Shown here: one piece after another, positions 42,291-47,416 of the stretch
Position numbering within the stretch: the stretch's first letter is position 1
Layout: every line of letters starts with the position of its first letter
Assembly (NCBI GenBank): GCA_945883425.1
Contig: CAMCXM010000005.1
Coordinates: 1 to 56,531 of the forward strand
DNA length: 56,531 bases
Source of the DNA: Spirosoma fluviale
GTDB lineage: Bacteria; Bacteroidota; Bacteroidia; Cytophagales; Flexibacteraceae
Direction of reading: 5' to 3'
The notes under the pieces: model-generated
Database searches by the model: none
What the model was told of the DNA's origin: nothing
The model's input: the letters and a program-made list of their open reading frames with translations, nothing else
Made by a program: the position numbers and the translations under genes

Positions 42291-42788
42291 TTATTGTGTG
42301 CTTTCCCTTTTTGTCCGGATGGTGAGATTCCGGTTTTCATATTTCTGCGGAACAATGAGAAAACCAAATGCTTCACAAGATTCTTTGGAGTGCCGGCTGT
42401 GGTGAACATAATGGGCATTGATCATCCGGTTCAAATAAGTAGTACGTTTTTTCGGTCTCCATTTGATTCGTTGATGAACAACAAAATCATGAAAAACCAG
42501 ATAGAAAATCCCATACAAAAGAATTCCCAGAGCCAATGAAAAGATATATGGGTTCCCATAGTGAATTCCCCACATAAACAGTCCAATGGAAGGAATGCTG
42601 AATACAAGCCCGAAAAGGTCGTTTTTTTCAAGAACATGATTATGACGGGTGTGGTGAGACTTATGCCAACTCCACAAAAAGCCGTGCATTACATACTTGT
42701 GTGTCCACCAGGCCACAAATTCCCAAAACAGAAATGTGCCGATGGTGATGAGAGAGCAGATTAGCAAAAGGAGAAAACTGAATTTCAT
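42291..42788 (-). CDS. crtZ: Beta-carotene hydroxylase / sterol desaturase family
   Basis: WWTHKYVMHGFLWSWHKSHH, HDFVVHQR, HYVHHSRHSKE His motifs. Confidence 0.87.
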   Translation of the reverse strand: MKFSFLLLLICSLITIGTFLFWEFVAWWTHKYVMHGFLWSWHKSHHTRHNHVLEKNDLFGLVFSIPSIGLFMWGIHYGNPYIFSLALGILLYGIFYLVFHDFVVHQRIKWRPKKRTTYLNRMINAHYVHHSRHSKESCEAFGFLIVPQKYENRNLTIRTKRESTQ

Positions 42789-42804
42789 AGGTGGCTCAAA
42801 CTTA

Positions 42805-43743
42805 TCACAATGCCAAAACTGCATCCCTAACTACTTCCATCAACCAAAGAGGTGTAGAGGTTGCTCCACAGATTCCAACCGTTGCTCCATGCCGGAACCA
42901 CGAGGCGTCAAGGTCTGATGCACTGCTCACAAAATAGGTATCCGGATTGGAATCTTTACAAACCTGATATAAGACCTTTCCATTGCTGCTTTTCAATCCA
43001 CTTACAAAAAGTATGATATCATATTGCCGGGCAAACTTTCGTAGCTCAATATCCCGGTTGGATACCTGCCGGCAAATGGTGTCATTGAGGTCAACTTCAA
43101 TTCCATTATCGGTGAGATGTTTATGGATTTTATAGAAACTCTCTGTGCTTTTGGTTGTCTGGCTGTACAATGAAATCTTCCTCGGCATGGTTGCCAGATC
43201 AAGCTCTTCAATCGATTGAAATACAGTGGCTTTCCCGTTTGTTTGGCCCAATAGTCCAAGCACTTCTGCATGGCCATGCTTTCCATAGATGAACACATCT
43301 TCCTGCTTCTCAAAGGTATTCTTAATGCGGTTTTGAAGCTTTAGAACCACCGGACACGAAGCATCGATGAGTGAAATATTATTTTCCAGCGCAATCTTGT
43401 ACGTGGAAGGAGGCTCTCCGTGAGCCCGGATCAGAACTTTGGTATCCTTCAGATTAGCGAGCTGTTCGTGATCAATGATCTGAAGGCCCTTACGTTCCAG
43501 TCGAAGTACTTCCTCGTCATTGTGGACAATATCGCCAAGGCAGTAAAGAATTCCCTCTTCTTCCAGAATTTCCTCTGCCATTTCGATGGCGTACACAACG
43601 CCAAAGCAAAAGCCGGAACCGTGGTCAATCGAAACTGAGAGACCAAGGCGTGAATTGATGAAGGACTGTTCAATTGTATCACTTACCGTCCGCTTTGATT
43701 CTGACGGATTGATGCTGTTTTGAGCGGTGATCGTCTTAAGCAT
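42805..43743 (-). CDS. ispH: 4-hydroxy-3-methylbut-2-enyl diphosphate reductase
   Basis: SGFCFGVVYAIEMAE, CLGDIVHNDEEVLRL, RAHGEPPSTYKIA. Confidence 0.95.
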   Translation of the reverse strand: MLKTITAQNSINPSESKRTVSDTIEQSFINSRLGLSVSIDHGSGFCFGVVYAIEMAEEILEEEGILYCLGDIVHNDEEVLRLERKGLQIIDHEQLANLKDTKVLIRAHGEPPSTYKIALENNISLIDASCPVVLKLQNRIKNTFEKQEDVFIYGKHGHAEVLGLLGQTNGKATVFQSIEELDLATMPRKISLYSQTTKSTESFYKIHKHLTDNGIEVDLNDTICRQVSNRDIELRKFARQYDIILFVSGLKSSNGKVLYQVCKDSNPDTYFVSSASDLDASWFRHGATVGICGATSTPLWLMEVVRDAVLAL

Positions 43744-44581
43744 TACGGTAGGAATAAGAGTTGAACTGAAGAATATTCCGGATTAGAAGAACCAGTTTAT
43801 GGAAATTTGTGATTCTGATTCGTTTGGTGAGTAATTCTGAAGGCTGACTTTTCACAATCTTATGAAGGAGTCCTCTGTAGTAATTCAAGGCCAGCTGCAC
43901 ACCATTCCTGGAATTGGAAGGCAGGCGAACAATGCCTTTTTGTGCTTCTCTGAATTCATCTTCGATCTCTTTCTCTATGTTTCTTTTATCGGATTCAGAA
44001 AACCGTTTGATGTCGAGTCCCGGAAAATAAACTCTTTTTCTATCCATCAGATCGCTCCGGATATCCCGAAGGAAATTGACCTTTTGAAAGGCAGATCCAA
44101 GTTTTCGTGCTGGCTCTACAAGTTCATTAAAAAGGGCATCGTTGTCCTGACAAAAAACTTTCAGACACATCAGGCCCACCACTTCAGCCGAACCATAAAT
44201 GTACTTTTCGTACAATTCCTGGTCATATGTCTGATCGGTCAGATCCAATTCCATGGAATAAAGGAAGGCATCTATATAATCGTGGCTGATCTTAAACGTG
44301 TTGACTGTATCCTGAAATGCATGAAGGACAGGATTAAAAGAGATTCCATTTTGAATGGCCCTGAACGTTTCCTCTTTCAAAAGTCGGAGTTCTTCGACCG
44401 GATTTTTATCCTGATAGGTATCCACGATCTCGTCTGCCAGTCGCACAAAGCCATAAATGGAGAAAATGTCGTTTCGGATTTCTTTTCCCAACAAGCGGAT
44501 TCCCAATGAAAAAGATGTACTGTACCTCTTGGTAATCAGGGCACTACACTCAATGCTGGTTTGGGTATATAAATCTTTCAT
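43736..44581 (-). CDS. crtB: Phytoene synthase
   Basis: YSTSFSLGIRLL, IYGFVRLADEIVDTYQD, YIYGSAEVVGLMCLKVF, LGSAFQKVNFLRDIRSD. Confidence 0.95.
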   Translation of the reverse strand: MKDLYTQTSIECSALITKRYSTSFSLGIRLLGKEIRNDIFSIYGFVRLADEIVDTYQDKNPVEELRLLKEETFRAIQNGISFNPVLHAFQDTVNTFKISHDYIDAFLYSMELDLTDQTYDQELYEKYIYGSAEVVGLMCLKVFCQDNDALFNELVEPARKLGSAFQKVNFLRDIRSDLMDRKRVYFPGLDIKRFSESDKRNIEKEIEDEFREAQKGIVRLPSNSRNGVQLALNYYRGLLHKIVKSQPSELLTKRIRITNFHKLVLLIRNILQFNSYSYRNA

Positions 44582-46083
44582 CTGGAAAAATCTTTCAGAA
44601 TCTCTTTGGCCACTACTTCACCGGAAATCAGACTCGGTGGGACTCCCGGACCCGGCACTGTAAGCTGACCCGTAAAATAAAGATTGGATACTTTTTTACT
44701 TCGGATCGATGGCTTGAGGATGGCGGTCTGCATAAGCGTATTGGCCAGTCCATAGGCATTTCCTTTCAGCGAATGGTAATCGGAAATGAAATTGCGTGCG
44801 CCGTATGGAACTTTAAACATCAGCTTTTCACGGATTGGGTTACCAGTAAATCGTTCGGTTTTTTCCGCAATAAACTGAAAATAATGTTCAAGTCGGGCAT
44901 CGTCTTCCAAAACCCCAGGGGCAGTTGGGATCAGAAAAAACAAATTCTCTTTTCCCTCTGGTGAAATGGAATTGTCTGTAATAGACGGAGCTGATAAATA
45001 AAATAATGGCTTCTCCGGCCAACCTGGTTCATCGTAAATTTTTCTGGCATGAACCGAAAAATCCTCATCAAAAAACAGATTATGGTGTTTGAGATTTTGA
45101 ACCCGTTCGCCAAATCCACAATAAAATAATATAGATGAAGGAGCAAGAACCCGGCTGTTCCAGTAGGATTCGGAATACGAACGCCATTGAGGTTCGAGCA
45201 GAGCGGTTTCTACATGGGCATAATCGGCATTGGCAAGAACGACGGTTGCATTGAACGTCTTCGAACGGGTTACCACTGTTTGTGCTTTCCCGTTTGATCC
45301 TACTTCAATCCGCTTGACTTCTTCATTGTAAATGAATTCAACTCCGAGTTTTTCGGCAACTGAAACCATACCTTTTACAATTTGCGTCATACCATGCATT
45401 GGATACCAGGTTCCTAGCTTGATGTCGGCAAAATTCATAAGGCTGTATAAGGCCGGCGTTTTTTCAGGCGTAGCACCAAGAAACAAGACTGGAAACTCAA
45501 GGATTTTCAGGATCCGGGGATGCCTGAAAAAGCGGCTTACATGTTTTTTGAAATCAGAAAGGAGATCCAGTTGAAGAAGCCCTTTCAGTGTGGTGAAATT
45601 GGCAAACTCCAAAATCGACTTACTGGGTTTGAAAACCAGGTTGCCGATCCCTTCTCTGTATTTGATTTCTGCTTCATGAAGAAACCGTTCCAGATTTCGT
45701 GCGGCTCCGGGTTCCCATTTTTCAAATTCAGCAGCCAGTTGCTTCCAATCGGCCGGCACATCATAATATTCTCCCCCTTCAAAAAAAACACGATAGGAAG
45801 GATCCAATCGTGTCAAAGAATAAAAGTCGGATACCGAATGTCCGAAAATCTCAAAAAATCGTTCAAAAACGTCGGGCATCCAGTACCAACTTGGGCCCAT
45901 GTCAAATGTAAATCCTTCTTTCTCAAACGTTCTCGCTCTACCTCCTGGCTGGTCATGTTTCTCAATGACTTTTACATTCCAACCAGCTTTCGCCAGAAAA
46001 CAGGAAGCCGACAATGCAGAAAATCCACTGCCAATAATTAGTACGGATTTCGATGGGAAGGGATTTTTCTGCGTATCGGTCAT
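44578..46083 (-). CDS. crtI: Phytoene desaturase
   Basis: VLIIGSGFSALSASCFLAKAGWNVKVIEKHDQPGGRAR; LYFTGQLTVPGPGVPPSLISGEVVA. Confidence 0.96.
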   Translation of the reverse strand: MTDTQKNPFPSKSVLIIGSGFSALSASCFLAKAGWNVKVIEKHDQPGGRARTFEKEGFTFDMGPSWYWMPDVFERFFEIFGHSVSDFYSLTRLDPSYRVFFEGGEYYDVPADWKQLAAEFEKWEPGAARNLERFLHEAEIKYREGIGNLVFKPSKSILEFANFTTLKGLLQLDLLSDFKKHVSRFFRHPRILKILEFPVLFLGATPEKTPALYSLMNFADIKLGTWYPMHGMTQIVKGMVSVAEKLGVEFIYNEEVKRIEVGSNGKAQTVVTRSKTFNATVVLANADYAHVETALLEPQWRSYSESYWNSRVLAPSSILFYCGFGERVQNLKHHNLFFDEDFSVHARKIYDEPGWPEKPLFYLSAPSITDNSISPEGKENLFFLIPTAPGVLEDDARLEHYFQFIAEKTERFTGNPIREKLMFKVPYGARNFISDYHSLKGNAYGLANTLMQTAILKPSIRSKKVSNLYFTGQLTVPGPGVPPSLISGEVVAKEILKDFSR

Positions 46084-46590
46084 TTAGTTCTGGTACATTT
46101 TAAGGACATCTTTCAGCTCCTTCCTGGCAAGGTGAATCCTGTTTTTCACTGTTCCAATCGGGATCGAAAGCTTGTCTGAAATTTCATGGTATTTGTAACC
46201 GTGAAAATACATCATAAATGGTTCACGAAACGAATTTTCTAACGTAGACAAAGCTTTTTGAATGTCATCCATTGTAAACTTTTGCTCACCGTCGTTTCGG
46301 GTCGTGAATTGGGTAGAGTTAATGAAATGCAGGTTTTCCGTTGTATCGATGAAGGTCCTCCTTTTCACCAACTTCTGATAGTTGGTAATAAAGGTATTCT
46401 TCATGATGGTATACATCCAGGCTTTCAGGTTAGTTCCTTCAGAAAATTTGTCTTTGTGAACAAAAGCCTTCAACACCGTGTCCTGCAATAAATCAGCCGC
46501 ATCGTCCATATCACGGGTGAGCCGCAATGCAAATGGTTTGAGGGCTTTGGTCGATTGAGTAATGGCGTAACTGAATTCGAGAGCGGTCAT
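46084..46590 (-). CDS. ECF-type RNA polymerase sigma factor of the carotenoid operon
   Basis: LTRDMDDAADLLQDTVLKAFVHKDKFSEGTNLKAWMYTIMKNTFITNYQKLVKRR; GYKYHEISDKLSIPIGTVKNRIHLARKEL; start 46590. Confidence 0.92.
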   Translation of the reverse strand: MTALEFSYAITQSTKALKPFALRLTRDMDDAADLLQDTVLKAFVHKDKFSEGTNLKAWMYTIMKNTFITNYQKLVKRRTFIDTTENLHFINSTQFTTRNDGEQKFTMDDIQKALSTLENSFREPFMMYFHGYKYHEISDKLSIPIGTVKNRIHLARKELKDVLKMYQN

Positions 46591-46601: not shown

Positions 46602-46683
46602 TTTTGTTTAATGCAAAGATAGAATAGGTTAAACAAAACGAACAAATTTTGTTGAACATTTTATTAAACAAGGTTAAACAAAA
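46602..46683. promoter_or_regulatory. Cluster of iterated GTTAAACAAAA-type sites upstream of the carotenoid operon
   Basis: TTTTGTTTAA 46602-46611 (inverse), GTTAAACAAAA 46628-46638, TTTTGTTGAAC 46647-46657 (inverse), TTAAACAA 46664-46671, GTTAAACAAAA 46673-46683. Confidence 0.7.
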
Positions 46684-46810
46684 TAGCAAATCCAAACCCA
46701 TTTACCTGCCTTTTCGCCTGAATATCAGAGGATAAAAGGAATGCTCATGAAATCAAAACACCTATCACAAAAAACAATATTACTTTTAGAGCCTTCAGAC
46801 ACTGAGTTTC

Positions 46811-47416
46811 ATGAAAACGTTAATTGCTTTATTTTCAAACACCTGGGACACTCTGATCCAGAATGAGGGTTTCGATGATACAGAATCAGGCGCTGGCTGT
46901 GCCCGTTTCATTGCAGCGAAATGGGAGAATCTGCTGGCCGACATTCCGGAAACTGAAGTGGCCGTGTTTCATCCCTCTATGGCAAATACTGGCGATTACT
47001 TCCCTTCGCATTACAGACGATTTATCCAGGTCGGGCATTTTCTCGAAGACCGGATTCGAAATGTATTTGAACTCTGTTTCGAAAAAGGATACCAGCAGGT
47101 ACTCTTTGTGGATTCAGCAGCTGCGTTTACATCAGCAAAAAAAATCAAGAACTATATAAGTCACCTGGACTCGCATGATCTTGTTTTTGTGCCATCCGAA
47201 ACAGGATCGGTGCACATCGCCGGGATGCAGCTCAATGTTTTCCCGGTTTGGGATTCATTCCAATTTTACCAGGACGAAAGTGTGGTGGAAATGCTCAGCG
47301 ATTGCATCCGACATAATGTATCCTATTCACTGGAACCCGTTATTCAATGGAAGGAATCGGTGGATCAGTTGTGGCGGGAAGCAACCGCACCCAAACCTTC
47401 CCGACTGAAATCCTGA
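46811..47416 (+). CDS. DUF2064/TIGR04282-like putative glycosyltransferase
   Basis: RRFIQVGHFLEDRIRNVFELCFEKGYQQVLFVDSAA resembles the DUF2064 pattern QVGGDLGERM..F..GY..V. Confidence 0.6.
   Translation: MKTLIALFSNTWDTLIQNEGFDDTESGAGCARFIAAKWENLLADIPETEVAVFHPSMANTGDYFPSHYRRFIQVGHFLEDRIRNVFELCFEKGYQQVLFVDSAAAFTSAKKIKNYISHLDSHDLVFVPSETGSVHIAGMQLNVFPVWDSFQFYQDESVVEMLSDCIRHNVSYSLEPVIQWKESVDQLWREATAPKPSRLKS

Follow-up and report, generated by a model that had tools for sequence, protein, structure and literature searches.

Conserved inverted pairs upstream of a Spirosoma carotenoid operon form a candidate operator for a CarH-like regulator in Bacteroidota

The contig CAMCXM010000005.1 of Spirosoma fluviale (56,531 nucleotides, referred to in its entirety as the window) carries a carotenoid (crt) operon headed by a gene for an extracytoplasmic function (ECF) sigma factor, followed by crtI, crtB, ispH and a crtZ-like gene (Table 1). 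A cluster of short related sites lies between the sigma start (46590) and a divergent gene (46811). A preliminary description of this DNA had claimed iterated sites upstream of the crt sigma gene, and they are present: positions 46602-46683 contain five matches to GTTAAACAAAA at up to two mismatches, two of them exact, two with one mismatch and one with two. The sigma start is placed at 46590 on the minus strand, where M1 is invariant across 23 orthologues (the longest open reading frame formally begins at 46701), so the sites are noncoding and upstream of the sigma gene.

Loose matches to GTTAAACAAAA number 39 over the whole window, against 36 by chance, and the signal is therefore one of clustering rather than count. 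The 8-bp core (TTGTTTAA/TTAAACAA) occurs in exact form six times in the window, with four of these copies inside the 82 bp; in 200 dinucleotide shuffles of the window the cluster never exceeded two. Alignment of relatives indicates that the functional unit is an inverted pair, TTGTTTAA-N16/17-TTAAACAA. The window contains two such pairs 45 bp apart, and the 3.75 Mb genome has no other N17 pairs at up to one mismatch. An 11-bp lattice was considered for the spacing (44 = 4 x 11), but logos of relatives contain no conserved intermediate repeats. The region has a single copy of the TAnnTTTG element, and the TTTG upstream of it is a candidate -33 element by the known consensus.

Table 1. Coordinates of the crt operon, its promoter elements, the site cluster and the divergent gene in the window
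Feature	Position	Strand or half-sites	Remarks
Proximal inverted pair TTGTTTAA-N17-TTAAACAA, exact	46604..46636	half-sites 46604-46611 + 46629-46636	brackets -7 element
Distal inverted pair TTGTTGAA-N17-TTAAACAA, one mismatch	46649..46681	half-sites 46649-46656 + 46674-46681	upstream of -33 element
Extra exact half-site TTAAACAA within distal spacer	46664..46671	+	not kept in the relatives examined
Bacteroidota-type -7 element TATCTTTG (TAnnTTTG)	46614..46621	-	inside proximal pair
Candidate -33 element TTTG	46643..46646	-	21 bp upstream of -7 element, between the two pairs
ECF sigma factor, crt operon gene 1	46084..46590	-	
crtI-type phytoene desaturase	44578..46083	-	Amino_oxidase/NAD_binding_8
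crtB-type phytoene synthase	43736..44581	-	SQS_PSY
ispH	42805..43743	-	LYTB
crtZ-like hydroxylase	42291..42824	-	His-rich motifs; without Pfam match; relatives carry the pair in other genomes
Divergent DUF2064-like gene	46811..47416	+	

Footprinting of crt operons, a check that could have overturned the regulatory interpretation, found that the motif before crt sigma genes is conserved throughout the class. The sample of 88 regions preceding crt sigma genes and their relatives drew 30 from whole genomes of the order, this one among them, and 58 from named records, mostly of Cytophagales with some of Chitinophagales, Saprospiraceae, Lewinella and Pedobacter. At up to two mismatches, with a spacer of 16 or 17 and within 200 bp, the pair is found in 77 of the 88 regions (shuffles: mean 0.65, maximum 3), and upstream of other genes in the same loci in 9 of 859 cases. 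The spacer distribution is sharp: at up to one mismatch, N16 accounts for 54 regions, N17 for 24 and every other spacer for two or fewer. Where pairs are doubled they are mostly 43-45 bp apart, and 39 of the 66 proximal pairs contain TAnnTTTG in a constant position, offset by 15 or 16 relative to where the left half-site starts. Four of the 11 regions lacking a pair within 200 bp (L039, L108, L109 and L110) have one further upstream, and Hymenobacter mostly retains a degenerate N17 pair. The window-wide count of the loose 11-mer, which equals chance, is what one would expect if the cluster were AT-rich sequence devoid of function. That explanation, to which we give a negligible probability, is refuted by the footprint and ruled out by the shuffles of the window, which yielded no comparable cluster, together with the conservation, the spacing and the control patterns. 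One contig, CAKZMZ010000016.1 (L129), is filed under a metagenome-assembled genome of Thalassobius, an alphaproteobacterium, and has a Cytophagales-type crt sigma gene and operator; it is probably mis-binned.

The density of sites had been taken to imply a dedicated regulator, probably of the MerR/CarH type and acting in trans, with no such protein encoded in the window. A search of the window for CarH relatives indeed returned none, and the notion of a regulator in trans gains support from a gene on another contig of the same genome (C213). Its product, 295 residues in length, combines MerR and B12-binding_2 domains, and the gene adjoins a Caroten_synth (PF04240) gene. The N-terminal segment is a MerR helix-turn-helix (PF13411, 3e-14). 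W140, E150, H151, E188 and H190 are invariant in 22 homologues and form the Wx9EH and ExH motifs; in characterized proteins Wx9EH contacts the adenosyl group and separates CarH from CarA (PMC9304148). The closest PDB match by sequence is Thermus thermophilus CarH/LitR. Likewise, the AlphaFold model of a Marivirga homologue (pLDDT 88.5) finds T. thermophilus CarH 5c8e/5c8d as its top PDB matches (E 3e-15), the best fold match being the protein bound to coenzyme B12 (AdoCbl) and DNA, and its cobalamin-binding domain aligns with a TMt of up to 0.83. The genome also encodes a cobalamin adenosyltransferase.

The motif tracks the presence of this protein. Within the order, exact pairs (spacers 12-22) occur in 34 of 49 genomes with this CarH and in none of the 10 without it (Fisher 5e-5); across 119 genomes of the class, with a spacer of 16-17, they occur in 42 of 67 with CarH and in 1 of 52 without (Fisher 2e-13), in tests that treat genomes as independent. 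The sole CarH-negative exception (G137) has its pair inside a coding frame. A reversed control pattern is almost absent from the genomes. In many lineages carH lies immediately upstream of the sigma gene, and in some the pairs precede carH itself. These distributions also bear on a different origin for the motif, namely as a site through which the ECF sigma factor regulates its own gene; in favour of this is that in most genomes the motif precedes the sigma gene. Two genomes (G020 and G025) have CarH and pairs and lack a crt-sigma orthologue, the pair in G025 being located between carH and crtI. Because CarH-positive genomes retain pairs in the absence of the crt sigma gene, we reject autoregulation as very improbable; moreover, the occurrence of half-sites in both orientations at a fixed inverted spacing is unlike an ECF -35/-10 promoter, and the pair encloses a standard TAnnTTTG promoter.

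We consider it probable, at roughly 0.8, that the region serves as operator and promoter of the crt operon under a trans-encoded CarH-like dark-state repressor, which would define a class-wide light regulon. The pair itself, its conservation and spacing, its overlap with the promoter, the co-occurrence and adjacency of CarH and the recurrent targets are computational observations. From them we infer CarH binding to the pair, dark repression, B12 use and a light response as predicted functions. In the dark, AdoCbl-bound CarH would occupy the four half-sites, that is, the two inverted pairs over the -33/-7 promoter, and block RNA polymerase; four half-sites may suit one tetramer or two dimers. 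In the light, breakage of the B12 cofactor would release CarH and allow transcription of sigma-crtI-crtB-ispH-crtZ. The position of the pair over the promoter and start site suits repression. The half-site TTAAACA includes the TnnACA core of characterized CarH operators (PMC9304148), and TTAAACAA contains TAAACA, which is conserved in the logos of relatives.

Several observations weigh against this assignment. The co-occurrence statistics are uncorrected for phylogeny, and 25 of the 67 CarH-positive genomes of the class have no exact pair. One genome (G041; 84% complete, 750 contigs) has near-exact pairs at its crt sigma gene, and CarH was not found in it. Characterized CarH operators consist of tandem 11-bp direct repeats (PMC9304148), rather than the inverted TTGTTTAA/TTAAACAA pairs with a spacer of 16-17 seen here. 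In the protein, the Rossmann B12 motif (D/ExHx2G/P...SxT/V...GG) is kept in part: E188 and H190 show no variation, whereas S mostly takes the G/P position and the GG is lost. The position matching His132, the light-state ligand of T. thermophilus CarH (PMC10442372), is not His in this group. The best-named NCBIfam family, the CarH equivalog NF052513, matches at 88.9 bits, short of its cut-off of 400. Owing to this score, the missing His132 equivalent and the loss of the GG, we refer to the protein as CarH-like.

Two further explanations draw on these same observations. In one, the pair is bound by some other regulator that merely co-occurs with CarH. Co-occurrence is no proof of binding, the pairs of G041 stand without a detected CarH, and a TetR gene recurs as a neighbour in some lineages; this is nonetheless improbable given the adjacency of CarH to the pair in many lineages, the pairs in front of carH in some and the known CarH core within the half-site. 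In the other, which we regard as unlikely though deserving more weight, this MerR/B12-domain regulator does bind the pair but acts independently of B12 and light, as CarA does, or as an activator, and senses a different signal. The His ligand and the part of the Rossmann motif that are not conserved would fit B12 independence, for which Myxococcus CarA is a precedent as a B12-independent paralogue (PMC9304148), and activation is common among MerR proteins. Against B12 independence stand the intact Wx9EH, the very feature that discriminates CarH from CarA, and the light-related genes among the targets, while the coverage of promoter and start site by the pair speaks against an activator.

Outside the window, the best pairs of this genome mark three loci whose genes recur in relatives. 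On contig C58 a pair with one mismatch lies ~28 bp upstream of a PTPS-folE-SDR operon (L223:2510-4320; homologous loci in L209, L194, L210, L189 and L201). This operon may direct tetrahydropterin-like synthesis, possibly as a route to a photolyase/cryptochrome cofactor or a photoprotectant. On C21 a pair with one mismatch precedes a DUF4397 gene. On C124 a pair with two mismatches precedes a rhodopsin gene followed by a lycopene cyclase-beta-carotene dioxygenase fusion (CrtY/Blh), an arrangement that reads as a compact retinal-plus-rhodopsin unit. The fusion (L219:2193-4196), directly downstream of the rhodopsin gene, encodes 667 residues with PF05834 and PF15461, the latter being the beta-carotene 15,15'-dioxygenase part. 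Photolyase genes and MerR/CarH genes had been proposed as places to look for further sites; the CarH-like gene is on C213, and the photolyases of this genome have no site, although those of some relatives do carry it. An exact N16 pair at C6:15020-15051 (L218 2521-2552) lies 90 bp before a GH43-like/BT_3657-like gene, with a terminator-like hairpin near its other side; it has no clear target and no counterpart among the pairs of other genomes of the genus.

Across the class, 60 pair-bearing loci were assigned to target classes by our own tally, with some loci holding two classes and about six unassigned. The crt sigma gene accounts for 20 of the 60, DUF4397 or fasciclin genes for 12, crtI/crtB/crtZ for 7, pterin genes (PTPS/folE) for 7, photolyase/SRPBCC/epimerase/TetR genes for 5, TonB-receptor-like genes for 4 and rhodopsin for 2, in addition to carH itself. 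Pairs are found at DUF4397 genes in L252, L254, L255, L292, L295, L303, L305, L306, L307 and C21 and at fasciclin genes in L268, L284 and L299. CarboxypepD_reg/Plug TonB-dependent receptors with an upstream pair occur in L278, L280, L286 and L294; that their substrate is cobalamin is an attractive guess. The same pair would thus place rhodopsin and retinal synthesis, pterin synthesis, photolyases, DUF4397/fasciclin surface proteins and carH in one light regulon. On balance we favour the existence of a Bacteroidota CarH clade with an inverted-pair operator code, running a light/B12 regulon of carotenoids, rhodopsin/retinal, pterins, photolyases, DUF4397/fasciclin proteins and TonB receptors. 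The gene at 46811, for which the sites had been suggested to serve as a divergent promoter, is probably not a target and was rejected as one: it is a conserved neighbour of the sigma gene in the genus alone, and no TAnnTTTG in the region faces it.

The CarH/LitR systems of T. thermophilus, Bacillus megaterium and myxobacteria share with the present one a MerR/B12-domain regulator, the TnnACA half-site core, an operator that overlaps the promoter of carotenoid genes and a carH gene often near the genes that it controls (PMC9304148). Apart from the inverted geometry, the Bacteroidota operators differ in that the pairs are often doubled at 43-45 bp and overlap a -33/-7 (TAnnTTTG) promoter, and the regulon differs in including rhodopsin, pterin, DUF4397 and TonB-receptor genes. 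For CarA of Myxococcus xanthus, an operator (P crt) of two inverted repeats, one upstream of and one overlapping the promoter, was once proposed; later work favours direct repeats, and in relatives the repeats are degenerate (PMC9304148), whereas the unit conserved class-wide in Bacteroidota is the inverted pair. The class II LitR regulons of Pseudomonas also involve a LitR/CarH-family protein and light control of grouped genes, with LitR as the effector of a LOV photoreceptor (PMC9758184). CarH regulation of carotenoids is already known. The open-access literature that we searched contains no description of the inverted-pair operator, its class-wide conservation or the composition of the regulon, which suggests that these are new.

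Bacteroidota that are pigmented or bear rhodopsins abound in lakes and seas. The open-access literature searched says little about their light sensing, and the conserved operator makes a likely light regulon readable from sequence alone. It predicts that expression of rhodopsin and carotenoid genes would depend on both light and vitamin B12, and it points to uncharacterized light-linked genes, among them those for DUF4397 and fasciclin proteins, TonB receptors and the pterin operon. The inverted pairs also suggest that the recognition geometry of CarH proteins may be more varied than tandem repeats, which bears on optogenetic tools derived from CarH.
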